Shown here piece by piece: positions 34,101 to 61,727 of a DNA stretch of 61,727 nucleotides; position 1 is the first letter of the stretch; each line of letters begins with the position of its first letter. The notes under the pieces are model-generated. The model searched no databases. It had not been told where the DNA came from and saw only the letters and a program-made list of their open reading frames with translations. The stretch is from a virus. The DNA lies in the IMG/VR virus record IMGVR_UViG_3300020061_000007, positions 1-61,727 of that record; one strand, given 5' to 3'. Position numbers and translations under genes: made by a program.

Positions 34101-37100
34101 CACCGGACCAAAAACCCAAGCCGATCCAACAGCGCGCCGAATCAGAGAACTCGAATCGCAATTGATCGGCACCCGGGAAGCGGGACGATTCTTTACGCCT
34201 AAAGCCGTTGCCGAGCAAGTCGTCGACGCCGCGGATATTCGACCCGGCATGAAAGTGCTGGAACCGTCCGCCGGTAAGGGCGATCTCGCCGACGCGATCA
34301 AGGCGGCGGAACCCGAGGCCGATCTTTCCACCATCGAAATCAGATCGAACCTGCGCGAGATTTTGGAACTCAAGGGCCACAAGAGCGCCGGGAACGATTT
34401 TCTCGAACTCAAAGACGGCGATTATGACCGTATCGTGATGAATCCGCCTTTCGAGAACGGCGCCGAGATGGATCACGTCCGGCACGCCTACGAGCTACTG
34501 AAGCCCGGCGGCAAGCTGGTCTCGATCATGTCGGAGGGGCCGTTTGGCAGGACGGACAAAAAGGCCACGGAATTCAGGGAATTTTTATCGGAAGTCGGCG
34601 GTGAATCGGAGAAATTGCCGGACAAGAGCTTCACCGGCGCGGGCACGATCACCCAGACCGGTGTCAGCACGCGGCTGGTGACGATCGAGAAGCCCAAAGA
34701 CGCACCCGGCGCCCCCAACGAAGTCGCGGCACTGCTGAGTAAAGAGTCTGCAAAGCCGCAAACACCAACCGAAATCGAAACCTTGCTTCGGTCTGTTTAT
34801 CACGGCTCGCCGCATACCTTCGATAAGTTCGATATCAGCAAGGTCGGCACGGGCGAAGGGGCGCAGACTTACGGGCACGGACTGTATTTTGCCGAAAATC
34901 CAAAGGTGGCCGAGACCTATGCCAAAAAAGACCCTTGGAAAATGGCCGGTCCTGGGCCTCATTTGTTGAAGGGCGAAACCTATTCCGCCAAAATTTCCGA
35001 CGCCACGGTTTCTAAGATGCTCGATTGGGATAAGCCGCTGAGCGAGCAACCGAAAGTCTTGGAGATCGTTAAATCGGTAGCTGGGCCGGGTGGACAACCG
35101 GAGAAGTGGACAGGCGAGGAAGCCTATCACGCGCTGGAAAACATGGTGCACAAGCCCGGCGATGGTGCAGGTGACCGTCAAAGGGTATCGGAACTTCTTG
35201 CTCAACATGGCATCCCCGGAATCAGATACCTTGACCAAGGCTCGCGCAGCGCCGACATGGGCTATCGCATTATTTTTCCTGATGGCAAACCTTCTAATAC
35301 GCGATGGAAAACCAAGGCGGAAGCCGAGACAGCGCTTGGCAACGCAGGGAAACAGGGACGCGATACCAAAGACGCAAAGATCGAATTCATCGACGATGAC
35401 ACGCGCAGCACGCGCAACTATGTCGTCTTCGATCCTGACATCCTCACCGAAGTTAAGCGCAACGGTGGCGAAGTCGCGGCACTGCTGAGCGCGGAGAAGC
35501 CGAAGGCGCAACCGGCGCAACCGTTGACGGACATTCTTGAAAAGCCGACAGACACGACCACAACCGAATATTCCCGACAACTCAGAAAACAAGCGGACGC
35601 ACTTTCTAAAGAATCCATGAAAATGATGGATCGCGTCCCGCCAGGGCAACCCGTATCGTCTACGGCCGACAGGAATCTGCGAGAACGCGCAGCGGATAAG
35701 ATGCGCAAGGCTGGCAATCTAATTAAGCAGGCAGAGAAGCTGGAACAGGATATTTCGGAACCGACCAAGGGCCGGAACCCCATCGACATCCTAAAATCCG
35801 AAAGGGGCTCAATCCGCTTCGGTCCCGTCCGCATGCGCGACGGTAAACCAGTCGAGGCTCCAACCGTGGACGAGGTAAAAGCGGCCGTCGACGAGCTCAC
35901 CAAGCCGGTTTCCTCGAAACGACTCATTGCCGGCGGCCTGTTCGAAGAATCCACCAAGACGCTTTCCAAGACCATGGGCGCGGAAGGTACGGAGTTAGGG
36001 AAATTATCCAAGGCCGTGCGCAACGACTCGGAACTCGAAGCCAGCGCCGCCTATCAGCCGATCAAGGCGCAGTTAAAAAAGATGGACGCCAAGCAGCGCG
36101 CCAACCTGGTCGAGGTGCTCGAAGGCAAATCGGCTCCATTGGATGAAAAGGTCAAAACGCTCGCCACCACAACCCGTATAGCATTGAACAAAGTCGCCGA
36201 CCGCGCGGCACAAGTCGGTCTCGAGATCAAAAACCCGGTGACCGGCGAGAAATATCCGTTTCAGCCGCGCGAGAACTTCTTCCCGCATATGTTCGGCAAG
36301 GAGATGGGCCAGATTGCCCGTGATCCCAAGGGCCGGGCCATGCTCAAAGAGAAGATCAAGGCCAGTCTGGAGCGCGCCGGCAAGGAAGTCGATGATGTGG
36401 CGGTCGAAAAAGCGCTTCAAGGTGCGATCAAGACCTCGCGCACTCGCTACGGTCATTTGGAAATGGCGCGCATCGCCGACCTTGGCGATTATTCCAAGGA
36501 CGCCGGCGCGGTTCTATCGAGATATTTCGCCGACGCTTACCGCCGGGTGAACATTGCCGAGAAGTTCGGGCCGGATCTGGCGAAGGGTGAAAAACTTCTT
36601 AGTGAAATCGGTCTCAACAAGGGCGACAAGGCGGAAAGCTTCGCGCGCAGCTATTTTCAAAAAGTCACTTCCACCGAGCCGGAAGGAAACCTAGCCGTCA
36701 AGGACGCCGTGCGGTTCGCGACTAACTTTCAGGCGGCGACCAAGTTGGGCCAGGCGGTCATTTCGAATCTGTCGCAGCCTGCTTACACGGCGATCGTGGC
36801 GGGAGCGAAGAATGCGGCCAAGGGTTACGGCGCGGCCATGACCAAAGAGGGCCGGACCTTCGCCGACAAGATTATTCTAAGCGACACGATGACGGACTTT
36901 TTGAAAGACACCGGCGAGCATATCGACCGCAGCAAAATGGGCAAGGCGGCGGATACGGTGCTCCGGCGAACCGGTTTTACTGCGGTGGAGCGCATGAATC
37001 GAACGGTCTCGGCCAATGCGGGTAAGTTCTTTGCCGAGGATACTTTCGAGAAGCTTTTAAAGAAGCCCGACAGCGCGCGCCTACGCTATCACCTGGAAAA

Positions 37101-37797
37101 AATGAACGTCGATGTCGAGGCGGCATTGGAACGCGGCGAGCTTTCGGAAAAGGATTTGCTCCGCGCCGGGCAGAACATCGTCAATCGCACGCAGTATAAG
37201 ACCGATGTCACCGAGATTCCGCTATTCTGGTCCAGCGATGCCGGGCGGCTCTTAACGCAGTTCAAGAAGTTTCAGTTCAAGGCCGGGCAAATGATGAAGG
37301 ACGAAGTTTTGGCCGAGATGAAGCGCGGCAATGCCAAGCCGTTTATCAGAGCCGCTTTGATTCTGCCGATCGCTGGTCTTTTGACGGTTACCTTAAAGGA
37401 CTCAGTGCGGTTTGGCGATCAGACGGAACGGGACCGAAACATTGCGGACTATCTTGCCGCGGTCGGCACCTTCGGAGCGTTCACCGACGCCTTTGCAGGC
37501 TCGGGACGCCAGCCGGTCAAGGGACTGCCGTATTTGGCTGGTCCTACGCTCGGCGATGCCGGTTCGTTATGGGAAGCGGCGTTTATCGAAGCTCCGAAGG
37601 GTAATCTTAGACCGGGAGCCAAGTTTGTTGCGCGTCAAGTCCCGGTAGTGGGTCCGTCGATTCGCCAGTTGTTCAATGAGCCGAAGGAACCGAAGTCGAG
37701 CGCGGAGAACAGCCAGCTTTTAAAGGAGCTTGGGATTGATTCGCCGCTGCAAAAAGAGGCGAACCGCAGAATGTTGAAAGATCTTGGGCTCCAATAG
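31165..37797 (+). CDS. Giant polyvalent virion protein with methyltransferase and ADP-ribosyltransferase-like domains
   Basis: A 2210-residue protein. In order: an N-terminal helical region; an ART-like block near 345-430 (FTRFYRADVEGATKPGGTHWV); Pro/Ala/Lys-rich linkers; an N6-adenine methyltransferase domain from about 1007 with MKVLEPSAGKGDLADAI (motif I) and NPPF at about 1093 (motif IV); a second ART-like domain near 1212-1430 beginning VYHGSPHTFDKFD and ending YVVFDPDILTEV; and a long helical C-terminal region with QFKKFQFKAGQMMKDEVLAEM. This is the layout of polyvalent proteins, thought to be packaged and injected to act on host targets early. Confidence 0.8.
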   Translation: MPFVADTQEELPRRSSGFVPDPPAPKNWFDQLKSTASDVGQSVSDTAQTLRPVAEAVKNFLSAEPAREFSPSGEDVARVMGGVAKDPTVRAVAQSFPDAARLVPEVAHRIFKPAMPFMGGQPLPDVVRVPLEVAATELRKIDPRAANLLEAGLMTAGAMHGQVGAAVKQAANIPRYGRFAGEPEAARFANARDVTPEAPRALPAPGEPIAAGPPRPARAQPIAEIIKPKAAEPVKSGFVPDEAVKPGFTLEPVANAPTAKVNTFYDDAVKAYTSTTFDERFGNMHGTGATPKSAEASLNKNLTAAKEQGTWRSVEHPTPAPKAKPERPAPYGIQPRGFVPDEAPKGFTRFYRADVEGATKPGGTHWVKASDAERSGYFREGGEYGKANLYVDVPNSYPEIANTLDLNNYIPTRITIPKDSELARQVKPIAPPPETPAVTKPLEARIAKLEAEVERGNAELRGKPAAAPETPRAEVPVPERFQQTAPAEPLKTKPLRTIQGEIGDAVERNVEQVTQSEGNLEYKGKEYEGAVREGKKLRLKDSPDKVIGNPAEMLKVEEKVPFDIAPEIAPDAPQTVTSGPIGSKPPELMTPGEAAQGLHLSGSPVSARDAHRFTISKALDDGKPVNADAMVVYEDLRAKAEELGYKRSGDRYVLGEKASPSFEQTPAGQQAVIPGAEARSVPDAPLRAKRAQTEKPLELEQPGIAAKEPGLFEPKPIPSKNLAPEEIAAADEMRGELGTPKLSTQDSALSTEKPLDPVAERIAQLEKENAELRERKAQKEVSQKSAVASKAPALRRLADGMDAQIEAKMNPASANQNPTHRRAGIIDSMMRDGDRLKAIQTQLRAIADASEAGTLPDSLREVSSRADLETMSGKFYRPSVHNSNLNSILEVTKSKRGLTEDRAQVARANGRLTSPGSSATILYPNDLDAISRVAKAAQDAKPYDAKGVLEDVAKARRMAKLGIETEEKFNKAKADLEQLTGPKTQADPTARRIRELESQLIGTREAGRFFTPKAVAEQVVDAADIRPGMKVLEPSAGKGDLADAIKAAEPEADLSTIEIRSNLREILELKGHKSAGNDFLELKDGDYDRIVMNPPFENGAEMDHVRHAYELLKPGGKLVSIMSEGPFGRTDKKATEFREFLSEVGGESEKLPDKSFTGAGTITQTGVSTRLVTIEKPKDAPGAPNEVAALLSKESAKPQTPTEIETLLRSVYHGSPHTFDKFDISKVGTGEGAQTYGHGLYFAENPKVAETYAKKDPWKMAGPGPHLLKGETYSAKISDATVSKMLDWDKPLSEQPKVLEIVKSVAGPGGQPEKWTGEEAYHALENMVHKPGDGAGDRQRVSELLAQHGIPGIRYLDQGSRSADMGYRIIFPDGKPSNTRWKTKAEAETALGNAGKQGRDTKDAKIEFIDDDTRSTRNYVVFDPDILTEVKRNGGEVAALLSAEKPKAQPAQPLTDILEKPTDTTTTEYSRQLRKQADALSKESMKMMDRVPPGQPVSSTADRNLRERAADKMRKAGNLIKQAEKLEQDISEPTKGRNPIDILKSERGSIRFGPVRMRDGKPVEAPTVDEVKAAVDELTKPVSSKRLIAGGLFEESTKTLSKTMGAEGTELGKLSKAVRNDSELEASAAYQPIKAQLKKMDAKQRANLVEVLEGKSAPLDEKVKTLATTTRIALNKVADRAAQVGLEIKNPVTGEKYPFQPRENFFPHMFGKEMGQIARDPKGRAMLKEKIKASLERAGKEVDDVAVEKALQGAIKTSRTRYGHLEMARIADLGDYSKDAGAVLSRYFADAYRRVNIAEKFGPDLAKGEKLLSEIGLNKGDKAESFARSYFQKVTSTEPEGNLAVKDAVRFATNFQAATKLGQAVISNLSQPAYTAIVAGAKNAAKGYGAAMTKEGRTFADKIILSDTMTDFLKDTGEHIDRSKMGKAADTVLRRTGFTAVERMNRTVSANAGKFFAEDTFEKLLKKPDSARLRYHLEKMNVDVEAALERGELSEKDLLRAGQNIVNRTQYKTDVTEIPLFWSSDAGRLLTQFKKFQFKAGQMMKDEVLAEMKRGNAKPFIRAALILPIAGLLTVTLKDSVRFGDQTERDRNIADYLAAVGTFGAFTDAFAGSGRQPVKGLPYLAGPTLGDAGSLWEAAFIEAPKGNLRPGAKFVARQVPVVGPSIRQLFNEPKEPKSSAENSQLLKELGIDSPLQKEANRRMLKDLGLQ
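33387..33420. repeat. Heptamer array ACTCAGN inside the polyvalent gene
   Basis: Five consecutive units (ACTCAGC, ACTCAGG, ACTCAGC, ACTCAGC, ACTGAG). They are read as LSTQDSALSTE in a linker between domains. Same family as the palindrome at 5571-5647. Confidence 0.85.
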
Positions 37798-43308: not shown

Positions 43309-43995
43309 ATGACAAGAGGCATCCGGATCTTACTTTTATACTTTTGTACTTTTGTGCCCTTTCACTTCTTGTCGCCTGCCTGGGGCGCGAGCATCCGCAC
43401 GCCGGTGCAGACCGACAACTTCGCCGACAATAACCTGGGTTCGGGAACGGTCACGTGGACCCAGATCAACAACTGTTGCTCGCACATTCAGAACACCAGC
43501 GGAACCGCCAGCAGTGCGCACAGCAGTGAGTCGGTGGTTCAGGCCGACGGCACTTACAGCGCGGATCAGTACGCGAAGTTCAAGATCATCACCCTGCCGA
43601 GTGTTTCCCAAGCCAACGGCGGAATCGGAGTAATCGTCCGCTCCTCCGGCCAACAAGACTCGGCCCGCGACTATTACAAATATTGGGTCGACGGCGCCGG
43701 CAATCCCCTGGCGACAAAGCTCACCAAAGTCATCAACGGCACTCCAACCGATCTCGATTCAACGACTTCTGTTTCGTGGAGCGTCAACGACACCATCGAG
43801 ATCGAAGTCGAAGGAACGACCATCCGAGGTTATCAAAACGGCACTTTGAGAACGACGATAACGGATGCGGCTCTGGCCACCGGCAAGGCCGGGCTCGTGA
43901 TCGGGAACAACGTCGGCGTGGGCGACGATTGGGAAGGCGGCGATGTAACGGCGGGCGCGACGACTCCCATCCGCCATAGGGTGACCAACCAATGA
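43309..43995 (+). CDS. Secreted concanavalin/LamG-like protein
   Basis: A 228-residue protein with a signal peptide (RGIRILLLYFCTFVPFHFLSPAWG) whose hydrophobic core is written by an octamer DNA repeat. The mature part has the strand pattern of a LamG/DUF1080-like jelly roll (DNFADNNLGSGTVTW, GIGVIVRSSG, NDTIEIEVEGTTIRGYQNG, GKAGLVIGNNVGVGDDWEGG). Probably carbohydrate binding. GGAGAA precedes the ATG; overlaps the next gene by 4 nt. Confidence 0.65.
   Translation: MTRGIRILLLYFCTFVPFHFLSPAWGASIRTPVQTDNFADNNLGSGTVTWTQINNCCSHIQNTSGTASSAHSSESVVQADGTYSADQYAKFKIITLPSVSQANGGIGVIVRSSGQQDSARDYYKYWVDGAGNPLATKLTKVINGTPTDLDSTTSVSWSVNDTIEIEVEGTTIRGYQNGTLRTTITDAALATGKAGLVIGNNVGVGDDWEGGDVTAGATTPIRHRVTNQ
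43332..43355 (+). repeat. Octamer repeat within a signal-peptide coding region
   Basis: ACTTTTAT, ACTTTTGT, ACTTTTGT in tandem. The hydrophobic core of the signal peptide (LLLYFCTFV) is read from these units. Confidence 0.8.
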
Positions 43996-46667
43996 AAAAA
44001 ATCTTATCGGCTCTTGTTCTACTCACCTTACTATTGCCGAGAGTGGTTTGGGCAACGACGCTTTCCACGCTCGCCGCTTCCTTGAGTCCCGGCCAGTTTG
44101 CCCAGATTCCCGAAGCTCAAATGAGCGGGTTTGGCAACGGTCTGATCATGACGCCGCAGGGCGCAGGCTGCGCCAATTTTCAAGACACCATCACTCAGTT
44201 CGCCAACAAAGCGGTTTGGAACACGATCTTAAATCAGTTCATGTTTGTCGGCTCGCCGCACGGCAGTTGCAACACCTGGCGCCTGGTCATCTACGACGAC
44301 GCCACCAACACCTGGTCCATCGGACCTTCACCGTCGGCAGGCAATCAGCCGCAACACTCCTACGATCACAACACGATCAACCCGGCCAACGGTACGATGT
44401 ACTGGCGGGATTTTAATTCGCTGAGTTTCCGCACGTTGCCCAACGGCGCTGGTTCGTGGTCGAGCATCGCGTCTTTCAGTTCATCCAATCAATGCTGCGG
44501 CGCGCTGGAATATTTTCCCGATCAAAACCGGCTCATCTTTATCGACGGCGACAACGGCGGGCGGTCGTACAATCCGGCGACCAACGCCTGGACGCAGTTG
44601 TGGTTCGGTTTCAACGGCGGCGGGTCGCCGATCTTGGACGTCGGTCATCACAGCAATTGGGCCGAATACAGCAACCTTGGCCTTCTGGTCTTTGGCGGTA
44701 GCGGCGGCAATTACAAAATGAACGCGGCCGGCACGATCACCACGATGTCGTCGCCGCCGTTTGGCAATTTCACGATCGGCAACGAAGGGTCGTGCTGTTC
44801 GGTCGCAGCCGACCCGGTGACCGGGCATCTCGTCGTTATCTCCGGATCGAATGTCTGGAACTTAAATCCGACAACGGGAACCTGGACTAGCACCGGCACC
44901 ACGGCACCGTCCTATTTCGGCAACGCCGCTCAAGATTTGATCTCCGCGCCGATCTCCGATTACGGCGTCATCATGTACGTCAAGTGCAACCGTTCGTCCT
45001 CCTGCCAGGCTTATCTTTACAAGCATGGGGCGGGCACGCCGGACACCACGCCACCGACCGCGCCGAGCGCTCTGGTTGTAACCCCGATTAGTTTTACTCG
45101 ACTCGATCTGTCCTGGACCGCTTCATCGGATGCGGTCGGAGTGAGCAGTTACTTAATCGAACGCAGTCCGGCCGGCTGCGGCGCGTTCGCACAGGTCGGC
45201 ACGTCGGCGACCAATTCGTTTAGCAACACCGGGCTGACAGCCTCGACGACTTATTGCTACCGAGTTCGCGCCTCGGATGCGGCGAATAATTTAAGCGGAT
45301 ATTCAACGCCCAACGTCTCAGCCACCACGACAGCAGCGGACACCACCGCGCCAACCGTGCCGGCTAACTTGACCGCCACGGCCATCAGTGCGAGCCAGGT
45401 CAACTTGTCTTGGTCGGCTTCTACCGATGCGGTGGGCGTCACGGCCTATTTGCTGGAGCGCTGCGCTGGTGCTGCGTGTGTGAATTTTTCTCAGATCATC
45501 TCTCAGACGGGCATCATTTACAGCGATACGACAGGGCTCTTGGCTTCCACGTTGTATCGCTATCGCGTGCGCGCCACGGACGCGGCGACCAATCTAAGCA
45601 GTTATTCCTCGATCGCTCAGGCCACCACGCCGGCGGGCAGCGGCTCTGATTTTACTGCACGCTGCGCTGCGGCGGGGGTGCTTCGCTGTTTTAGCTTCGA
45701 CACCGATACCGATTTCGCGTTCGGCAGCGGCGGCGCTGAAGGGGGGCGAGGGCTCAACTACGGATATCTCCCGCCAAGCTCGAACGGTGACTTCACGAAA
45801 ATCACCAGGGACACCGCAACAAAAACTTCCGGAGCATCATCTCTTAGGCTGAATATCCCTGGCAGCGGCGGCGCTGATGTAGCGGGAGCCTGGTTTGCCA
45901 ATTTCTCCGCCGATTTATCGCAGCAACTCCAACCTGGTCAGGACATCTGGATACAGGTCCGCTATCGGGTCGATTCTAATTTTCTCAATCAAAATTACGG
46001 CGGGCACGGGTTCAAGATAATGGACATCAGCGGCGGCGACCTGCCGGGATGCGCTCCTGGCCAAGGCTCTGCACTATGTCCGACTACCTGTTGGGCTGGC
46101 GAGAACGTCTTTACTACCGAGAAAACCTCCTCGGGTCACTTGATAATCGCCTACTCAAACTGCACTGGAAACAACGGCTTTAACACGGCCTATGGATTCA
46201 CGAGCAATTTTTCTCCGCAGAACGTCAACAATTGTTTGTATCCAAGTTACGTCGCGCCACCCTGCATTTACATGACCGCGAATGAATGGTGGACGATGAA
46301 AATCCACATTCGCGTCGGCACCTATAACTCATACTCATCGACGTACCAGGTCTGGGTTGGCAGGGAAGGGCAACCGACCAGCTTGATAATAGACTGCGGG
46401 CCAGCTCCTGGCCGTACTTGCCTCAATCGGCAGGGCACAGCGCAGCCTGGGGGATGGTGGATCGAGAAAGATACCGCCTCGCCGATTGTCGTGGGCAAGG
46501 TCTGGCTTCTTCCGTATCAAACGGACGCGACTTTTACCGGCCTTCAACCCGCGCAAATCTGGTACGACGACCTGATTATTTCCCGTTCAGATATCGCCGA
46601 TCCGGGCGGCTCAATCACCCCGCCCGTCGCTCTAGCCGCACCGAGCGTGTCGGTGACAACGCCATGA
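43992..46667 (+). CDS. Secreted multidomain protein: propeller, two FN3 domains, jelly-roll C-terminus
   Basis: An 891-residue protein. Signal peptide (KKILSALVLLTLLLPRVVWA); about 320 residues of Kelch/galactose-oxidase-like propeller (WRLVIYDDATNTWS, RSYNPATNAWTQLW, NLNPTTGTWTST); two fibronectin type III domains (DTTPPTAPSALVV and DTTAPTVPANLTA); then a C-terminal domain with GHGFKIMDISGG and QIWYDDLIISRSD that resembles polysaccharide-lyase/jelly-roll modules. A surface adhesin or depolymerase is likely; enzymatic residues are not evident. Overlaps both neighbours by 4 nt. Confidence 0.65.
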   Translation: MKKILSALVLLTLLLPRVVWATTLSTLAASLSPGQFAQIPEAQMSGFGNGLIMTPQGAGCANFQDTITQFANKAVWNTILNQFMFVGSPHGSCNTWRLVIYDDATNTWSIGPSPSAGNQPQHSYDHNTINPANGTMYWRDFNSLSFRTLPNGAGSWSSIASFSSSNQCCGALEYFPDQNRLIFIDGDNGGRSYNPATNAWTQLWFGFNGGGSPILDVGHHSNWAEYSNLGLLVFGGSGGNYKMNAAGTITTMSSPPFGNFTIGNEGSCCSVAADPVTGHLVVISGSNVWNLNPTTGTWTSTGTTAPSYFGNAAQDLISAPISDYGVIMYVKCNRSSSCQAYLYKHGAGTPDTTPPTAPSALVVTPISFTRLDLSWTASSDAVGVSSYLIERSPAGCGAFAQVGTSATNSFSNTGLTASTTYCYRVRASDAANNLSGYSTPNVSATTTAADTTAPTVPANLTATAISASQVNLSWSASTDAVGVTAYLLERCAGAACVNFSQIISQTGIIYSDTTGLLASTLYRYRVRATDAATNLSSYSSIAQATTPAGSGSDFTARCAAAGVLRCFSFDTDTDFAFGSGGAEGGRGLNYGYLPPSSNGDFTKITRDTATKTSGASSLRLNIPGSGGADVAGAWFANFSADLSQQLQPGQDIWIQVRYRVDSNFLNQNYGGHGFKIMDISGGDLPGCAPGQGSALCPTTCWAGENVFTTEKTSSGHLIIAYSNCTGNNGFNTAYGFTSNFSPQNVNNCLYPSYVAPPCIYMTANEWWTMKIHIRVGTYNSYSSTYQVWVGREGQPTSLIIDCGPAPGRTCLNRQGTAQPGGWWIEKDTASPIVVGKVWLLPYQTDATFTGLQPAQIWYDDLIISRSDIADPGGSITPPVALAAPSVSVTTP

Positions 46668-49600
46668 CCAAAACCCGTGGCTCGTGGCTCGTGGCTCGTG
46701 GCTTCATCGTCAGGCTCCTTCTCGCTCTATTGCCTATTGCCTATTGCCTATTGCCTTCTCCCGCCTGGGGCGCGGCGAACACCATTGCGCAGGCTCCGGC
46801 CGTGGCGACGGCCACCGGCACGACGATCAATAAAGTTTTTGCCGGCGCCACGGTGGTCGGCAGCCGGTTGATTGCGGTCCTTACGGTAGAGGGCGTGGTG
46901 ACATCGCTCACCGTGGCCGACAACGGCAACGCCGGGAATTACACTCAGGACGTGACCGGCAATAGCGGCGGCGGCTCGGTCGGCGCGCGGGCGAGTTACA
47001 TTTTTTCCAAGGTCAACACGGTTACTTCGGCGGTTACGATTACGGCCACCTGGACCGGGGCGTCGGCCGCGCAAATCCAGATCTACGAGCTGAGAAATAT
47101 TGGCGGTACGCCGATTATAGATGTCACCGCCAATGGCGGCGGCACCAGCGGCGCGCCCGTTGTGAATCCCAGCGTGTCGATCACCACCACCACGGCCAGC
47201 GACACGATCATCGTCGGGGCGACGAGTTACCCCCCACCGGCCACGCCGGACACCGGGTTTGTCTTTCGCGGCGGTCCTACTGCGCTCACCAATGCCGTCC
47301 ATACGGTTGAGGATCGCGTCGATGCCGCAGCCGCAGGGGCAACCACGTTGACCCTTAGCGGCCTGGTTCTCGGCGGCGGCAATTCGTACAGCATGGCTGT
47401 GGCGGCGTACAAACCGCCCGCCGTGGCGGACGTGACCCCGCCAACCGTGCCGGGCAGCTTGTCCGTGACTCCGTTCAGCACCACGCAAAATAATCTGAGC
47501 TGGACCGCTTCGACCGATGATGTTGCCATCGCCTGGTACAGCCTGGAGCATTGCACGGGCGCCGGTTGCGTGAACTTCGTTGAGTTCAATACGTCGGGCA
47601 CAACAGCGGGTTCCGATACCGGGCTGCAGCCATCCACCCTTTATCGGTATCGAATCCGCGCTTTCGACGGCACCAACTATTCCGCCTATTCAACCATCGT
47701 CGAAGCGACCACGCTGACACCGGATGCCACGGCGCCGACCGTGCCGACCAATGTGCTCGCAACCGTCGTCAGCACGACGCAGATCAATCTTGCCTGGACC
47801 GCTTCGACGGACAACATCGCGGTCACCAATTACCGGGTCGAGCGTTGTACCGGGGCGGCTTGCGTAAACTTTTCCGAGGTCGGTGCGCCGACCGCAATCA
47901 CGTTTCCCAATACCGCACTGACGGCCGGGACGGTTTACCGCTTCCGGGTGCGCGCCTTCGATGGCGTCAACTTCTCCGCATATTCAACCATCATTCAGGC
48001 GACCACGCTCTTAGCGCGCCAGGCAACTATCAGGTGGACCGATACGGTCAACACGGATCACACCGGGTACACCGTGCAGCGAAAAACCGGCGTCGGCGGC
48101 ACGTTCGCCGATCTCGGCAGCGTCGGGCCAAGCCTGCGCCAACTTATCGATCCGGACTCGCCATCACCGATCGCATGCTATCGCGTGCGCGCGGTGCGCG
48201 CGGGAGAAGACGGGCCACAATCGGGAGAGGCCTGCACGACGACCTCGACACCGACGCCGCCGATCAATTTAGTGCTCGGTGGCAAAATCGCTTTCGGCGG
48301 CGCCAACACTACACGGATCGAGTCGCGCGACAATACCGCGCCGTCAGTTCCTACCAATCTGGTCGCCAACGTCGTCAGCTCGACCGAGATCGATCTTGCC
48401 TGGACAGCGAGCACGGACAACCTTGCGGTGATCAATTACCGGGTCGAGCGCTGCGCCGGCAACACCTGCATCAATTTCGTGGAGATCGCCACGCCGAGCG
48501 GACTGACGCTGGCCGATACCGGGCTGCAATCGAACACGTTTTATAACTATCGCGTGCGCGCATGGGACGGGACGTTGTTTTCCACGTACTCGGCGATCGC
48601 GCCGGCCAGGACCGATACCCAGGCGGCGACCACTTTGGTCAAAAAGAGCGGTGCGGACACCGTTCCCAACTGCACCAACTCCACGGGCGTCCTCACCGTA
48701 CTCTACGCTTTGGAGAACTGCGTCGGCGGCGGCGTAGGAACCGGGGCGGCCAAGGTCGTCGAGGTCGAATCCGGCACTTATGATGCGAGAATTGATGAAG
48801 CGACCGGGTTTACTTATCCCAGCGGCACGAGCAACAGCCGGTTCATCCTAAGAGCGAAGGCGGGTCATGCTGTAGTTCTGAAAGCCACCGGGCACGACAA
48901 CATTATTCGGGTCTGCGGCCGGCGGAGTTACTTCGCAGACATCGGGCCTGGGTTCACCTTCGACGGCACGGGGCACACGGGCAACGGCCAATCGATGATT
49001 TCCCCCGGGTGCGCCGACGATAGTCCAAGCGACATCAAAATCGTCGGCAACAACATCATCAACGGCGGGGTTAATACGGGCGTGGCCGCCGGGCAGTGGA
49101 GTTCACGTATCGATGTCATCGGCAACACCTTTTCAGGCTGGACCGTGGCGTTGGGATGTTTCGCCGGCAATCCGCCCAACTGCGGCTATCCGATGTATTT
49201 CACAGCTTCGGACAGCGAGATCAGCGGCAACACGTTCACGGACTTTGCCGCTTACGGAATCCACATTTATTTGGAATCGATCCACCCAGGCGGCGGCGGT
49301 GCATTCCCGTCACGCAATTTGGTTAAAAACAACGTGTTCAGCGGTCCATGGGGATCGCTCCAGGGCGCGGCGGCGATACTGATTGCGCGCGGCGACTCGA
49401 ACGTGGTCGCAAACAACACGATCCGGGACGGCTACCGCGGCAACTGCGCGGGCGCGGCGACCGGCGGTGTCGTCGTCGATTTCGGCGCGACCAATACCAA
49501 GGCCCTGAACAACTCGGTTTTCAATAGCTGCACCGGCATGTCGTCCTACAATGCCCAGAACAGCACATTTAGTAACAACGCTCTGTACGGGAACAACTTG

Positions 49601-50536
49601 GACTTCGAAGTTGATCCGGTGGGCCGCGACAGCGGACGAATCACCTCTAACAATGGTTGCTCGCAACTGCTGACCGGCTGCAACGCGCTACTGAACGAGG
49701 CATCCGCGGCGGTGTGGACCGACGCGCCGGGCGGCGTGCTTACGCTTAAATCCACGGCTAAAGCGACGACCATTGGCGGCGGCATTGAGTTGTCCGCGCT
49801 TTCCCCATCGATCACCACGGATATCGTGTCCACCTCGCGCAGCGCTCCCTATTCCGTCGGTGCGTACCAGTTCAGCAGCGGCACCTGCCCGGCCACGCCG
49901 ATCCAAATGATCAAGCTGGGCTTTGACGAGGGGACCGGGACCACCGCGGCAGACAGCAGCGGCAACGGCAACAATGTCGTTTCGATCGGCTCGGGAAATA
50001 GTTGGAACGCGACCGGCAAATATGGCAAGGCGCTCACGTTTGGCGGAACGGCGGCGGCGACGGTTGCCGACTCAATATCGCTCTTCCCGTGTACGGCCTG
50101 GACCTACATGGCTTGGGTCAAACCGACGAACACGCCGACCGACTTCGCCGGCATCATCAACAAGGGCGTCAAGCAAAGAATGTACTCGGCTTCGCACCCC
50201 TTCTACGTGATGAACTCCGGGCAATTGGCCGGCTGGAGCCAGGGCGCGGACGTGTTTGCAACTTGGCCGGTGGCGTTCACGGCAGGAACTTATGTCCACT
50301 ACACCGTCACCTACAACAGCGCGCTACCGAGCGCCAACGTAAAAATCAGGATCAACGGCGCCATCGTCGCATCGGCCGACGGCACGACGATACTCGGCAG
50401 CACCACGGACCCGCTGCTGATCGGCGGAAGTTTATTCGGCGAATATTTTGTCGGTGACATTGACGAAGTGAAGGGCTGGAATTCCGAACTCACCGGCGCG
50501 CAAATCATTACCGAGATGAACACGCCGATTAATTGA
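46664..50536 (+). CDS. Secreted adhesin: FN3 repeats, beta helix, LamG domain
   Basis: A 1290-residue protein starting at ATG 46664 (ATGA overlap). The frame is open upstream to 46418, but those residues shadow the preceding gene. The signal peptide (LLLALLPIAYCLLPSPAWG) is partly encoded by heptamer DNA repeats. Then come a beta-sandwich domain of about 190 residues, several FN3 domains each starting DVTPPTVPGSLSV, DATAPTVPTNVLA or similar, right-handed beta-helix turns (RIDVIGNTFSGWTVAL, EISGNTFTDFAAYGIHI), and a C-terminal LamG domain (LGFDEGTGTTAADSSGNGN). Architecture of a bacterial surface adhesin. Confidence 0.68.
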   Translation: MTKTRGSWLVARGFIVRLLLALLPIAYCLLPSPAWGAANTIAQAPAVATATGTTINKVFAGATVVGSRLIAVLTVEGVVTSLTVADNGNAGNYTQDVTGNSGGGSVGARASYIFSKVNTVTSAVTITATWTGASAAQIQIYELRNIGGTPIIDVTANGGGTSGAPVVNPSVSITTTTASDTIIVGATSYPPPATPDTGFVFRGGPTALTNAVHTVEDRVDAAAAGATTLTLSGLVLGGGNSYSMAVAAYKPPAVADVTPPTVPGSLSVTPFSTTQNNLSWTASTDDVAIAWYSLEHCTGAGCVNFVEFNTSGTTAGSDTGLQPSTLYRYRIRAFDGTNYSAYSTIVEATTLTPDATAPTVPTNVLATVVSTTQINLAWTASTDNIAVTNYRVERCTGAACVNFSEVGAPTAITFPNTALTAGTVYRFRVRAFDGVNFSAYSTIIQATTLLARQATIRWTDTVNTDHTGYTVQRKTGVGGTFADLGSVGPSLRQLIDPDSPSPIACYRVRAVRAGEDGPQSGEACTTTSTPTPPINLVLGGKIAFGGANTTRIESRDNTAPSVPTNLVANVVSSTEIDLAWTASTDNLAVINYRVERCAGNTCINFVEIATPSGLTLADTGLQSNTFYNYRVRAWDGTLFSTYSAIAPARTDTQAATTLVKKSGADTVPNCTNSTGVLTVLYALENCVGGGVGTGAAKVVEVESGTYDARIDEATGFTYPSGTSNSRFILRAKAGHAVVLKATGHDNIIRVCGRRSYFADIGPGFTFDGTGHTGNGQSMISPGCADDSPSDIKIVGNNIINGGVNTGVAAGQWSSRIDVIGNTFSGWTVALGCFAGNPPNCGYPMYFTASDSEISGNTFTDFAAYGIHIYLESIHPGGGGAFPSRNLVKNNVFSGPWGSLQGAAAILIARGDSNVVANNTIRDGYRGNCAGAATGGVVVDFGATNTKALNNSVFNSCTGMSSYNAQNSTFSNNALYGNNLDFEVDPVGRDSGRITSNNGCSQLLTGCNALLNEASAAVWTDAPGGVLTLKSTAKATTIGGGIELSALSPSITTDIVSTSRSAPYSVGAYQFSSGTCPATPIQMIKLGFDEGTGTTAADSSGNGNNVVSIGSGNSWNATGKYGKALTFGGTAAATVADSISLFPCTAWTYMAWVKPTNTPTDFAGIINKGVKQRMYSASHPFYVMNSGQLAGWSQGADVFATWPVAFTAGTYVHYTVTYNSALPSANVKIRINGAIVASADGTTILGSTTDPLLIGGSLFGEYFVGDIDEVKGWNSELTGAQIITEMNTPIN
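46676..46754 (+). repeat. Two heptamer arrays in a signal-peptide coding region
   Basis: CGTGGCT four times (46676-46703) and CTATTGC four times (46727-46754). The first encodes the basic start of the protein, the second the hydrophobic core LLPIAYCLLP. Confidence 0.9.
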
Positions 50537-53235: not shown

Positions 53236-53503
53236 AGCGATTGCGCTTTCCGCGATGATTTTTTTTCTCTTGAGCATTTCAGGCTGCGCACCTGGAGGTT
53301 TACTTTTGACCGACTCTTCCAACATGACACCCGAACAAATGGAGGCGTACCAGAAGCTCGGCTATGACGCGATTCGCTGCGCCACGGTGCAAGGTCCGCC
53401 GGGCGGCGGGACTGTTACGTCGGTCACGATTCCAAAAAACAGAAAAGCTCTAGTTAAGTTTGTAGGCTGTTTGCCGCAGAGCGTGGAAGTCGGCGGCGAT
53501 TGA
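53219..53503 (+). CDS. Phage lipoprotein
   Basis: A 94-residue protein with a lipoprotein signal (RAIALSAMIFFLLSISGCAP; lipobox ISGC). The mature part is short (TPEQMEAYQKLGYDAIRC, then Gly/Pro-rich and a beta end). Lipidation would place it in the outer or inner membrane; an outer-spanin role is possible but unsupported by motif. Its 3' end overlaps the convergent HNH gene by 50 bp. Confidence 0.6.
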   Translation: MKESLRAIALSAMIFFLLSISGCAPGGLLLTDSSNMTPEQMEAYQKLGYDAIRCATVQGPPGGGTVTSVTIPKNRKALVKFVGCLPQSVEVGGD

Positions 53504-53981
53504 GATTCTGATCGTGGACACTGGCCCATCTACAATTGCCCGGTTCATAGTTCCCGTTGTTGTTCGGATAGCGATCCAGCGTTAATCTCGGCGGACACTC
53601 GCCCATGTAGGAAAGAAAGGCGCTAAAGCTTTCTCGCCATTCTTTGCACATCGTAATCCCGCGGCCACCGTAATCTTTCCACTTTTTATCGTTTGGATTG
53701 GAGCACCGAGTCTTGGCATGAGCCCATGCCGTGTATTCTCTTGATGCTTGCCCGTCTTTGGCGTGACCGTGTTTATGAATGCTGAAGCGTCTACTTCGTC
53801 GGTGGCAACCACAACTCACCGTGTTTCCACATTTGAGGTTGTGCGCCATGACGGTCTTTTCAATTCCGCAATCACATCGGCACAGCCACCTAGTTCCAAA
53901 TCTTGTTGTTTTATCAACTTTGCTAAGTGCCGTAAGCATGTGAAATTTTTGACCGCTCAAGTTTTCTGGTTTTGGTCCCAT
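53454..53981 (-). CDS. HNH/AP2-type endonuclease-like protein
   Basis: A 175-residue protein. N-terminus PENLSGQKFHMLTALSKVD, then RWLCRCDCGIEKTVMAHNL and CGNTVSCGC, a zinc-binding N-domain; later YGGRGITMCKEWRESFSAF, and TLDRYPNNNGNYEPGNCRWA, the D-R-N-G-Y-P-N-C-R-W core of phage HNH proteins that resembles that of the gene at 10287. Fifth HNH/LAGLIDADG-like unit of the genome. It is last in the minus-strand block that begins with the PEP-CTERM gene. Confidence 0.75.
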   Translation of the reverse strand: MGPKPENLSGQKFHMLTALSKVDKTTRFGTRWLCRCDCGIEKTVMAHNLKCGNTVSCGCHRRSRRFSIHKHGHAKDGQASREYTAWAHAKTRCSNPNDKKWKDYGGRGITMCKEWRESFSAFLSYMGECPPRLTLDRYPNNNGNYEPGNCRWASVHDQNLNRRRLPRSAANSLQT

Positions 53982-54197: not shown

Positions 54198-54482
54198 TCA
54201 CTTCCCCTGCCTGATCGTAATGTCCTGCTCAACTCTCTGCGCCGTCGGCTTGGATACCGCCTCCTTTTGCACGGCCGTCAGGTTCTCGGCGCGGACAAAC
54301 CCCAAAGCTTCATATTGGCCGGCGCAGTCCGACGCCTGCCGGCCGTCGATCACGGGATGACCGGTCCTTCCCCGGCAGGTGATCCGCTCACCGGTTTTAG
54401 GGTCAACTAAAAGCAGCGTGGTGCTTCCTAGACAGCCGGAGATCAACCCGGCGAAACTGATGACTGCAAATATTTTCTTCGT
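54198..54482 (-). CDS. Lipoprotein with apparent ACG start, exosortase operon
   Basis: A 94-residue protein if started at ACG 54482: KKIFAVISFAGLISGC is a complete lipoprotein signal with lipobox ISGC, and GGAG lies 6-7 nt before the ACG. The first standard start (TTG 54446) would remove almost all the signal. An ATG-to-ACG change or non-AUG initiation is implied. The mature protein (LLLVDPKTGERITCRGRTGHP, ASDCAGQYEALGF) is small with two cysteines. It overlaps the exosortase 3' end by 40 nt. Confidence 0.55.
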   Translation of the reverse strand, partial: TKKIFAVISFAGLISGCLGSTTLLLVDPKTGERITCRGRTGHPVIDGRQASDCAGQYEALGFVRAENLTAVQKEAVSKPTAQRVEQDITIRQGK

Positions 54483-54958
54483 AAAACTTCTCCTATCAAC
54501 CCCAACAGCAAAAGCGCCAATAAAAAATTAAAGATGCCGGCACCTTGGTGAAACCACCCGTCTATCGCGACCGGCCCGACGTGGTACGCCATCACCGCCG
54601 TGATGACGATTCGAACGACATTGGCGAACACCGCGATCGGCACCGCGCTGGCGATGATCGCCAATCTTAGGACGGGTGACAGCGGCAGCATGTAGGCGTA
54701 GATCAAACTCAAAACTAAAAGCGCGCGAATCGACTCCGTGCCGGCGCATGAGTCGGCAACCTCCAAAGCCATATTCGGCAGATAGATAAAGGTGCCATCG
54801 AGAACGGCCGGCACGCCGAACCAACCGACGATCTTGACGGTCTGCGCCGCGTCAAAGGCTTTGAGCCACTCGATAGCCGGCGCCTGGACGAGATTCCAGG
54901 GAATCGGAATCATCCAGACGATACAGCACACCAGCAAGGTTGTGACTCTGCCGCTCAT
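54443..54958 (-). CDS. Exosortase/archaeosortase family transpeptidase
   Basis: A 171-residue polytopic membrane protein with about five predicted helices. The catalytic signature is intact: Cys71 in EVADSCAGTESIRALL, Arg116 in PIAVFANVVRIVITAV and His137 in GWFHQGAGIFNFLL, the Cys/Arg/His set of exosortases, which cleave PEP-CTERM signals and attach the protein to the cell envelope. It is shorter than typical XrtA proteins, lacking the N-terminal helices and keeping only the core. It overlaps the stop of the PEP-CTERM gene by 4 nt, so substrate and enzyme are co-translated. No other exosortase substrate is seen in the window. Confidence 0.85.
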   Translation of the reverse strand: MSGRVTTLLVCCIVWMIPIPWNLVQAPAIEWLKAFDAAQTVKIVGWFGVPAVLDGTFIYLPNMALEVADSCAGTESIRALLVLSLIYAYMLPLSPVLRLAIIASAVPIAVFANVVRIVITAVMAYHVGPVAIDGWFHQGAGIFNFLLALLLLGLIGEVLRRKYLQSSVSPG

Positions 54959-55617
54959 CGAAGCTTTTTTCTGAACCGCACCACCAAAGCCAGCAGACCG
55001 ACCCCGAAGAGAATCAGAGTAGAGGGCTCGGGCACCTGGCGGATAGTGTAGGTGCCGAACTCAAAACTACGAAAGCCGTTGTCGGCGGAACGGTGAACAA
55101 ATTCGTTTGGGCCGATACTGGTTTTTAACTCAGCCGGAAGGGGCGGTAAATATGGATCGTCCCAAATGTTATTCGTGCTGGCCCTGGTGAACCAACCGTC
55201 AAACGAGAGCTCTTCGAGGATGGGGTGGAAGATACCGCCAAAGACTAATCCGACGATGTGCGGGGTATTACCGAGAAACAGGCCCGCGGCGTCCAGAAGG
55301 TCGAAACAATTCCCCGCGCCGCATAGCGAATGAAAGCCGTTACCGGACTCAACTTGGCTTATGTTACTCAAGGAAGTGGCGGCGCCGAAATCCGAGTCCA
55401 AGAAAAATCGCCCGGTGGTGGTTTGCGACGTTGGACCAAATACCGTGGTGCCGGGGAAATACGGACTCCCGGGCAGATGTACTTGTGTAAAAGTTGTCGT
55501 GTACCTGAACGTCTCGTGGAGCTGAATTTCCCACAAAGTCGGCATCGCCTGCGCACTGTAAGGAATCGCTACAAGTAAACTCAGCACAAAAATTAAAACT
55601 GTCAGCATTCTTTTCAT
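54955..55617 (-). CDS. PEP-CTERM sorted surface protein
   Basis: A 220-residue protein. N-terminal signal peptide of 24 residues (MKRMLTVLIFVLSLLVAIPYSAQA). The C-terminus is a textbook PEP-CTERM signal: VPEPST (from residue 195), hydrophobic LILFGVGLLALVV, then RFRKKLR. The middle is beta-rich with two cysteines (SLCGAGNC) and no known domain. The protein should be exported, held in the membrane by the C-terminal helix, and cut at PEP by the exosortase encoded right after it. It lies next to the phage attachment side of integrase, the usual place of lysogenic-conversion genes. Confidence 0.87.
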   Translation of the reverse strand: MKRMLTVLIFVLSLLVAIPYSAQAMPTLWEIQLHETFRYTTTFTQVHLPGSPYFPGTTVFGPTSQTTTGRFFLDSDFGAATSLSNISQVESGNGFHSLCGAGNCFDLLDAAGLFLGNTPHIVGLVFGGIFHPILEELSFDGWFTRASTNNIWDDPYLPPLPAELKTSIGPNEFVHRSADNGFRSFEFGTYTIRQVPEPSTLILFGVGLLALVVRFRKKLR

Positions 55618-55850
55618 TCTCGGCCTCCTAATTGGTTGTTGTGTGCAGTGCTTGGCAAAAGAGGGGCCGAACCCATGATTGCAATTTCAGTTGCAATTGG
55701 GTGTCATTCAATGCGTTTCTGTGTCCATCCATGTCCATCAGTTTCATAGGTAAAATCGACTTTTGAGATTGCCCAGAAAAGGCGAAACCGGTTTTGAAGA
55801 CCAGCGGCACCACCGGGCACCTTCCTTCTCCGTGTAATAAAATCAGACAC
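55618..55850. other. Candidate phage attachment region (attP)
   Basis: The 233-bp gap between the integrase stop and the PEP-CTERM gene holds no gene. At 55788-55804 the plus strand reads CCGGTTTTGAAGACCAG, the anticodon-arm wording of tRNA-Ser(TGA), followed by GCGGCACCACCGGGCACC like its variable arm; the T-arm is absent. TTCAGTTGCAAT occurs at 55686 and again at 55882 (inside the integrase 3' end), suiting arm-type integrase sites. Core assignment is tentative. Confidence 0.35.
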
Positions 55851-56924
55851 TTAAACGCTAGTACGAAGGCGGCGCGCTTTCTTCAGTTGCAATGCGCTTG
55901 CAATACGCCGTTTCGGAGGCCGGATAAACGCCCTGAGATCCTCGATTGTGGGCCGGGTGTAGCGCGAGAATGCTTTTGCCGTCTTGTGGCCGAGGAACTC
56001 CATGATTATTTTGTCGGGCCATCCAAGGCGCTGTTTCTCGGTTGCGAATGTGGCCTTCAAATCGTAGAGCCATAAATCGTTGATGCCGAGGGCTTTAGCC
56101 GTTCGCATGAATGCGGTGCGAATTCGATGCCGGCTGAACGGAAACAACAGCGCGTGCGGATCTAACCCGTTGGACCGGCGCGATAGGATCGCCCAGGCGC
56201 GAGCGGAGAGCGGCAGCGGGCGCTTGTGGCCGAACTTGCTGCGGATGCGCTTCATGTTGATGGCCTCATTTGCAAAGTCGATATCGGCCGGCGTGATGGC
56301 GTGAATGTCTTTCGGTCGAAATCCCATCTCTCTGATGATCTCGGCAAAGTCCCGATCATCCGGCTTGAGCGCGCGCAAGATTTTGCGGTATTCGATATCG
56401 CTCGCGGTGCGGACCCTCTCGTTGTGCTCTTCTTCAAAAGGGATCGCAGGGATCGCGCCGATCGCGTTATCGGCTTTCGCCAGGTTGAAAATTGACCGGA
56501 GCAAAGCGAGCTCGCGGTTGACCGTGGCGACCGACGCTTTTCGCTGGGCGCGGTATTCGAGCATGCGGCTGTTCATGATGTCTGTTAATGCGCAGTCACC
56601 GAAGAACGCCTTTAATCGCTTGGCGCTGTGAGCATGGCGCTCGGCGATCGGCTTGCCTGCTTTGATTGCCAGCAGTTTGTCGATCCAGGTAAAGAGCGCG
56701 AGCGGCGGCGCCACGGTTACGGCGTCGAAGTCGTGCTTTCGTCGGTTTTGCCCCATGAGCTCATGGTAGCGATCGAGCGCCTCAGCATAATCGTCGCCCA
56801 GCGGAAAGAACCGCCGCTTGTGCGTCCAGTCGGTGAACTGCGCATGATAGAGCGTCCTCTTATACCCGCCGCGGGTTTTATACTGGCGCTGATATAAATT
56901 CGGCGGCAATTTCCGATTAGACAT
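55851..56924 (-). CDS. int: Tyrosine integrase
   Basis: A 357-residue recombinase. N-terminal arm-binding-like region, core SAM-like domain (AKRLKAFFGDCALTDIM), and catalytic domain with Arg203 (EMGFRPKDIHAI), LGHKT His313 and nucleophile Tyr322 (FSRYTRP). Box II reads LYDLKATFAT: Tyr287 in place of the usual His, and Lys290 in place of the usual Arg. The second change is rare and may weaken activity. It should integrate the phage at attP just downstream of its 3' end. It overlaps a 31-residue membrane frame at its start by 8 nt. Confidence 0.88.
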   Translation of the reverse strand: MSNRKLPPNLYQRQYKTRGGYKRTLYHAQFTDWTHKRRFFPLGDDYAEALDRYHELMGQNRRKHDFDAVTVAPPLALFTWIDKLLAIKAGKPIAERHAHSAKRLKAFFGDCALTDIMNSRMLEYRAQRKASVATVNRELALLRSIFNLAKADNAIGAIPAIPFEEEHNERVRTASDIEYRKILRALKPDDRDFAEIIREMGFRPKDIHAITPADIDFANEAINMKRIRSKFGHKRPLPLSARAWAILSRRSNGLDPHALLFPFSRHRIRTAFMRTAKALGINDLWLYDLKATFATEKQRLGWPDKIIMEFLGHKTAKAFSRYTRPTIEDLRAFIRPPKRRIASALQLKKARRLRTSV

Positions 56925-61063: not shown

Positions 61064-61727
61064 ATGTCTCTCTTGAAACCAGCCGAAAACCAATCGGCAT
61101 ATTTGAAAGCTGGCGTACTAGGTTTCGCCGGCAGTGGAAAAACTTTTACCGCGAGCTTACTCGCGCAGGGACTTGCTGTGATTGAAGAAAAGGCCGGAAG
61201 ACCCAAACGGCCGGTTGCGTTCTTCGATACGGAAACTGGCAGCGATTACGTGATCGGATCATTCAGGGAGGCGGGACTTGAGATGGTAGTCGCCAAGACT
61301 CGCGCCTTTGCAGACCTAATAACGGTCGTTAATGAAGCGGAGAAGGACTGCTCTGTATTGATCATCGATTCGATCTCGCACGTATGGGCCGAACTGGTGG
61401 AATCCTACATGCGGAAGAAGAACAAGGACCGGTTGGCAGTGTGGGATTGGAACCCGATCAAGACGGAGTGGCGCCAGTTTACCGACGCTTACCTGTGCTC
61501 GAAAATTCATATCATTCTTTGCGGCCGGGCTGCGAACACCTACGACGAGTGGATGAACGAGCGCGGCGAGAAAGAAATCATCAAGACGGGCAGCAAGATG
61601 AGAGTTGAATCTGATTTCGGGTATGAGCCGTCGCTGCTTTTCGAGATGGAGCGAGTACAGCCGGAAAAAGATCCTAAGAAAAAACGCGGTTCGTTGTGGA
61701 TGCACCGGGCAACGATACAGAAAGACC
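61064..61727 (+). CDS. RecA-like AAA ATPase (Sak4-like), N-terminal part
   Basis: Starts at ATG 61064 and runs off the window; it continues in frame at position 1 (405 residues in total). Walker A is GFAGSGKT (20-27), Walker B is CSVLIIDS with Asp102, and the sensor-like segment CGRA follows the KIHIILCG strand. This is the P-loop core of the AAA_24/Sak4-type phage recombinase group. The window edge, not a mutation, cuts the gene. Confidence 0.85.
   Translation, partial: MSLLKPAENQSAYLKAGVLGFAGSGKTFTASLLAQGLAVIEEKAGRPKRPVAFFDTETGSDYVIGSFREAGLEMVVAKTRAFADLITVVNEAEKDCSVLIIDSISHVWAELVESYMRKKNKDRLAVWDWNPIKTEWRQFTDAYLCSKIHIILCGRAANTYDEWMNERGEKEIIKTGSKMRVESDFGYEPSLLFEMERVQPEKDPKKKRGSLWMHRATIQKD
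61593..61727. repeat. Right copy of terminal direct repeat
   Basis: Same 135 bases as 1-135 apart from A at 61719 (T at 127). Joining the two makes one complete ATPase gene. Confidence 0.9.

Follow-up and report, generated by a model that had tools for sequence, protein, structure and literature searches.

A core exosortase gene coupled to a PEP-CTERM gene next to the attachment site of a temperate phage

In the model proposed for the EpsH family, which is partly inferred, the PEP-CTERM protein is exported through Sec and retained by its C-terminal helix, and the exosortase processes it at the PEP motif (PMC1569441). Six residues are invariant in the family, arranged as Cys-x-Gly, Asn-x-x-Arg and His-x-x-x-Gly, a Cys, Arg and His triad has been proposed, and the hosts usually encode many PEP-CTERM proteins per exosortase (PMC1569441). 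The initial annotation of the locus described here took exosortases to be chromosomal; this is not strictly so, as 23 plasmid records carry one. The locus lies in an IMG/VR virus record (IMGVR_UViG_3300020061_000007) of 61,727 nucleotides, and this whole stretch is referred to below as the window. No exosortase was detected in 50,697 annotated phage records (tblastn with three exosortase queries), in PHROGs, in BFVD (Foldseek structure search) or by four pattern scans of IMG/VR, scans that miss divergent members and from which records very near the window were possibly excluded. Likewise, homologues of the PEP-CTERM protein or of its body were absent from the phage, plasmid and IMG/VR collections searched, and the search of viral databases for the two-gene pair that had been proposed returned no other phage with an exosortase or a PEP-CTERM relative. 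No description of a phage exosortase was found among open-licence papers, and the earlier statement that no phage system of this kind has been described stands for the collections and papers covered. A phage-borne exosortase cargo is apparently without precedent in them.

The first 135 bases of the window are repeated directly at its end (1-135 and 61593-61727, 134 of 135 identical). As this repeat lies inside an ATPase gene whose frame reads across the junction, the record represents a circular genome of 61,592 bp, and the exosortase/PEP-CTERM pair consequently sits inside a complete phage genome and not in a host flank. Read mapping had been suggested to confirm the linkage of the pair to phage genes; that question is largely answered by the terminal repeat together with the phage genes on both sides. 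The contig is classed as 'linear' in IMG/VR despite the circle, a label that may stem from the single mismatch in the repeat. The genome encodes a terminase, a portal, a major head protein, a tail spike, a spanin-like gene and a tyrosine integrase, and further HNH endonucleases, a methyltransferase and a Sak4-like ATPase; defence-gene models gave no match on it. With an integrase, a repressor region, an attP, structural genes and a closed genome, it is a complete temperate, podovirus-like phage, the repressor-like gene being a weak assignment (phrog_8, E 2.5e-4). Fibronectin III, right-handed beta-helix and laminin-G/lectin domains occur in large late proteins encoded at 43992-50536 (plus strand), which are probably carbohydrate-binding tail proteins. 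Moreover, the gene at 31165-37797 (plus strand) specifies a polyvalent protein of 2210 aa in which methyltransferase, DUF3560 and ADP-ribosyltransferase-like domains were weakly matched and which is perhaps injected together with the DNA.

Both open reading frames of the pair were recovered at 54443-55617 on the minus strand, where the initial annotation had placed them: the PEP-CTERM gene (54955-55617) is followed by the exosortase gene (54443-54958), with a 4-nt ATGA overlap at 54955-54958. The 171-aa product of the second gene, the sole exosortase that the phage encodes, scored 124.5 bits against the Pfam family PF09721 (cut-off 25.7, E 6e-36) and 68.2 bits against TIGR04178, the NCBIfam exosortase/archaeosortase signature (cut-off 23), which makes it a member of the family. 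The earlier assignment by profile held for these two models but not for the one that it had named, TIGR02602, which describes full-length EpsH ('8TM'): here the score of 90.8 bits, over profile positions 97-240 only, fell short of the cut-off of 105.55, as the protein consists of the C-terminal core alone. This core corresponds to profile positions 106-253 of 254. The phage enzyme has neither the eight transmembrane helices nor the TIGR02602 score of a full-length EpsH. All six EpsH-defining residues are in place, as C71-A-G73, N113-V-V-R116 and H137-Q-G-A-G141. In an alignment of the phage enzyme with 15 cellular bacterial exosortases (16 sequences), C71, G73, N113, R116 and H137 were invariant, which bears out the intact Cys71, Arg116 and His137 noticed earlier, and G141 was kept in at least 90% of the sequences.

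What is missing are the N-terminal ~115 residues of the bacterial relatives, including a conserved SHG segment, the phage enzyme starting just ahead of the MIPxP helix. Most of the bacterial relatives retrieved have 110-150 extra N-terminal residues, with more helices and the SHG segment; the sole shorter relative frame (L021) has 68, its start perhaps being called too late. The relatives are ~30-37% identical to the phage enzyme, ~37% being the best identity to any cellular protein found, and in the tree the enzyme sits on a long branch (3.1 changes per site) without a settled placement. Of the structure prediction once proposed for the enzyme with its substrate, the part concerning the enzyme was informative: on its own, and with the 16-sequence alignment, AlphaFold2 gave a compact, confident fold (mean pLDDT 89.4, pTM 0.78) with about four long membrane helices, to which nothing in the PDB was similar by sequence or fold. 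The substrate body was modelled poorly, its single-sequence model (pLDDT 43) being too poor to assign a fold. Judged from its sequence, the phage enzyme looks like an EpsH-type exosortase cut down to the core, since it is not close to the short families ArtE, XrtH, XrtK and XrtX.

The first gene of the pair encodes a 220-aa candidate substrate. Its layout agrees with the earlier description: an N-terminal Sec signal peptide (MKRMLTVLIFVLSLLVAIPYSAQA), a novel body and a C-terminal VPEPST motif with a transmembrane helix and a RFRKKLR tail, the C-terminus reading VPEPSTLILFGVGLLALVVRFRKKLR. Hydrophobic segments were found at residues 4-22 and 195-213, and both PF07589 (35.1 bits, cut-off 20.7, residues 194-217) and TIGR02595 (23.5 bits, cut-off 16) matched over their cut-offs, so that signal peptide, PEP motif, helix, basic tail and profile score all mark it as a PEP-CTERM protein. 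A PEP-CTERM domain search of the genome found this signal only here. The gene is preceded by a strong Shine-Dalgarno sequence, TAGGAGGCCGAGAATG, with TAGGAGG as the ribosome-binding site. No promoter was recognised for the pair, and matches to a sigma-54 site 5' of the PEP-CTERM gene, as in Proteobacteria, occurred at chance level only. The neighbours of the pair are int, HNH, lipoprotein and lysis genes, and exopolysaccharide (EPS) genes, EpsI and PrsK/PrsR/PrsT are absent around it; to call it a 'self-contained' module, as had been done, is therefore too strong.

The tyrosine integrase (357 aa; phrog_1 E 9e-33, PF00589) is encoded at 55851-56924 on the minus strand. Between it and the PEP-CTERM gene, 20 nt past the integrase, lies the attP core (55788-55831, minus strand), a 44-nt 5' half of a tRNA-Sec gene (selC), GGAGAAGG...CTTCAAAACCGG, made up of the acceptor 5' strand, a D-arm of 6 bp, the length typical of tRNA-Sec, and an anticodon arm carrying TCA. 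The Rfam tRNA-Sec model RF01852 matched at 55776-55830 (E 1.2e-4 in a 301-base search), its score staying under the gathering score because the 3' half is absent, as expected, and the core aligns to real tRNA-Sec genes found by ARAGORN (L034, L038-L040). The pair had been described as lying in a temperate phage, beyond attP and by the integrase, and the location of attP at the selC 5' half is in accord with this. Within an arm region of 230 bp (55679-55908), the exact 12-mer TTCAGTTGCAAT occurs at 55686 and 55882, one copy on each side of the core, and TTGCAA at 55679, 55691, 55887 and 55898, that is, 4 of the 13 such sites of the window, a density reached in 4 of 20,000 random placements. On sequence grounds, these repeats and TTGCAA motifs are good candidates for integrase arm sites. 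The attP half with the next bases (55775-55831, minus strand) can also be folded into a three-way junction resembling a tRNA-Sec that lacks the variable and T arms; this fold is no better than that of shuffled sequences (z -1.2).

In IMG/VR, neither relatives of the integrase nor another occurrence of the attP 23-mer was found. The nearest selC differed by one mismatch from a 30-base pattern allowing C or T at one place, and the nearest tRNA-Sec genes belong to the phylum that includes an uncultured Desulfobacterium genome, a resemblance that does not suffice to identify a host. In the genomes with the nearest tRNA-Sec, a search run without a positive control did not recover the phage capsid gene, and the classes of these genomes held no close exosortase relatives. 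Given where attP lies, int and the pair would end up at opposite edges of the prophage, and the edge away from int is a classic position for lysogenic-conversion cargo. The half of the tRNA gene that is carried is unusual: in mycobacteriophages with tRNA attB sites it is typically the 3' half (PMC10865867), whereas the 5' half is present in this attP, and after integration the host's own selC promoter would consequently point at the pair; neither attL nor attR was observed.

On its other side, 3' of the exosortase gene, the pair is bordered by a small lipoprotein gene (54198-54479, minus strand), and the next recognisable phage gene outward encodes an HNH endonuclease (53454-53981, minus strand; phrog_374 E 1.8e-54). 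A homologue of the lipoprotein (57% aa) sits just before the terminase in a related circular phage of 59.6 kb with a 99-bp perfect terminal repeat (G001, IMGVR_UViG_3300025324_000002), whose main head genes (terminase, portal, capsid) are ~80% identical at the amino acid level to those of the phage described here. The lipoprotein gene is thus a phage gene at the far border of the cargo. As G001 gave no exosortase or PEP-CTERM match, and no integrase match, the pair looks like an insertion between the lipoprotein gene and attP. Its GC and GC3 are within the range of the adjacent phage genes; together with the long branch and the identity of at most ~37%, this phage-like composition argues that the pair is not freshly acquired host DNA. 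The early region of G001 differs and has no recognisable tyrosine integrase, which suggests that temperate and possibly lytic relatives exchange modules. In the lipoprotein gene, an ACG precedes the natural signal peptide (about KKIFAVISFAGLISGC), a normal start codon apparently being missing, and the open reading frame as listed starts later, at a TTG within the signal peptide; a sequencing error, a mutation or an unusual start may account for this.

Its position and gene order lead us to read the pair as, probably, a lysogenic-conversion ('moron') cassette for the export of a single dedicated protein to the envelope or matrix. The phage would integrate into the host selC by recombination in the anticodon arm, leaving the cassette as the last gene pair of the prophage at the end that does not carry int. 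The host Sec pathway would export the PEP-CTERM protein, its C-terminal helix would hold it in the inner membrane, and the phage core exosortase would cut it at the PEP motif, with Cys71 forming the acyl-enzyme. A host-supplied acceptor would then take the cleaved protein into the envelope or the exopolysaccharide matrix, so that the lysogen would display one phage-chosen surface or matrix protein. The acceptor of the exosortase reaction is still unsettled; with no EPS, EpsI or PrsK/R/T genes near the pair, the host would have to supply both translocation and the final acceptor. The displayed protein may block other phages, aid adhesion or change the matrix, and the superinfection block raised by the initial annotation is no more than a possibility. 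More tentatively, and on balance doubtfully, the exosortase might be a minimal enzyme dedicated to the phage, with one private substrate, and the host selC promoter and 5' half might read into the pair, so that display would occur only in the lysogen. Speaking against the cassette are the missing N-terminal half, the TIGR02602 score below cut-off, the want of EPS, EpsI or Prs neighbours, the absence of a second phage with the pair and of a recognised promoter.

Some of these points would also suit passenger host DNA, brought in through an imprecise excision or a recombination event at the att edge, in which case the exosortase would be what is left of an N-terminally truncated enzyme, inactive and of no use to the phage. 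Mis-excised host genes do land right beyond attP, ~115 N-terminal residues of the cellular relatives are missing and the searches turned up no second phage with the pair. Nevertheless, we consider this origin unlikely: the six family-defining residues, the open frame and the tidy ATGA overlap with a candidate substrate have all been kept, short core-only families exist in their own right (NCBIfam profile lengths: ArtE 153, XrtH 158, XrtK 163, XrtX 168), the low best identity and long branch do not fit it, and a simple one-sided mis-excision fails to explain a position with a phage lipoprotein gene on the far side. A rewiring of existing host sorting, with the phage exosortase serving the host PEP-CTERM proteome or the phage protein using a host exosortase, seems a good deal less probable. 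The VPEPST-helix-RFRKKLR arrangement is a standard PEP-CTERM signal, perhaps acceptable to host exosortases, and hosts usually have many such proteins per enzyme (PMC1569441), but the way in which the two genes are coupled points to a dedicated pair. We give very little credence to a late role, such as that of an envelope or lysis-related factor: spanin-like and lipoprotein genes do lie at 51.2-54.4 kb and the adjoining lipoprotein gene belongs to the phage, yet int and the repressor-like gene share the strand of the pair, the late genes are on the other strand, and the pair has int as its neighbour directly across attP. Finally, a phage/host assembly chimera, conceivable for a metagenomic contig in which the pair occurs once, is highly improbable given the terminal repeat that closes the circle, the phage genes and attP on one side, the phage lipoprotein and HNH genes on the other, and GC and GC3 values within the spread seen in adjoining phage genes.

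If active, the cassette would provide the first exosortase-family protein-sorting enzyme on a phage, as far as our searches show, and a prophage route to place a chosen protein in the host envelope or biofilm matrix. Furthermore, an enzyme of 171 aa that has a single natural substrate would allow the exosortase reaction to be studied in a very small system.

Known surface-altering morons modify the O-antigen or block entry, and we know of none that brings a sorting enzyme together with its sorted substrate. With the P22 genes gtrABC and sieA (PMC10883804), the pair would have in common that it is prophage-expressed cargo altering the envelope or entry. With the exosortases of megaplasmids (Nitratidesulfovibrio pDsulf-L2-1, Roseobacter xrtD plasmids) it shares the extrachromosomal location; the four examined encode full-length enzymes, polysaccharide or other cellular genes lie next to them, and none of the replicons is a phage. 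The short members of the superfamily, the archaeosortases ArtE and ArtF and XrtH, XrtK and XrtX, resemble the phage enzyme in being core-only proteins of ~150-170 aa, but in sequence it is far nearer to EpsH/XrtV (94 bits) than to ArtE (37), XrtH (18) or XrtK (15). The closest likeness is to the EpsH-type exosortases (PF09721, TIGR02602; nearest subfamilies XrtV/XrtA). In contrast to these, the phage pair lacks the N-terminal half of the enzyme (about four helices), the EPS locus, EpsI and the regulators, and it has a single candidate substrate and is borne by a phage; it has in common with them the C-x-G, N-x-x-R and H-x-x-x-G motifs, the catalytic core and a PEP-CTERM partner.
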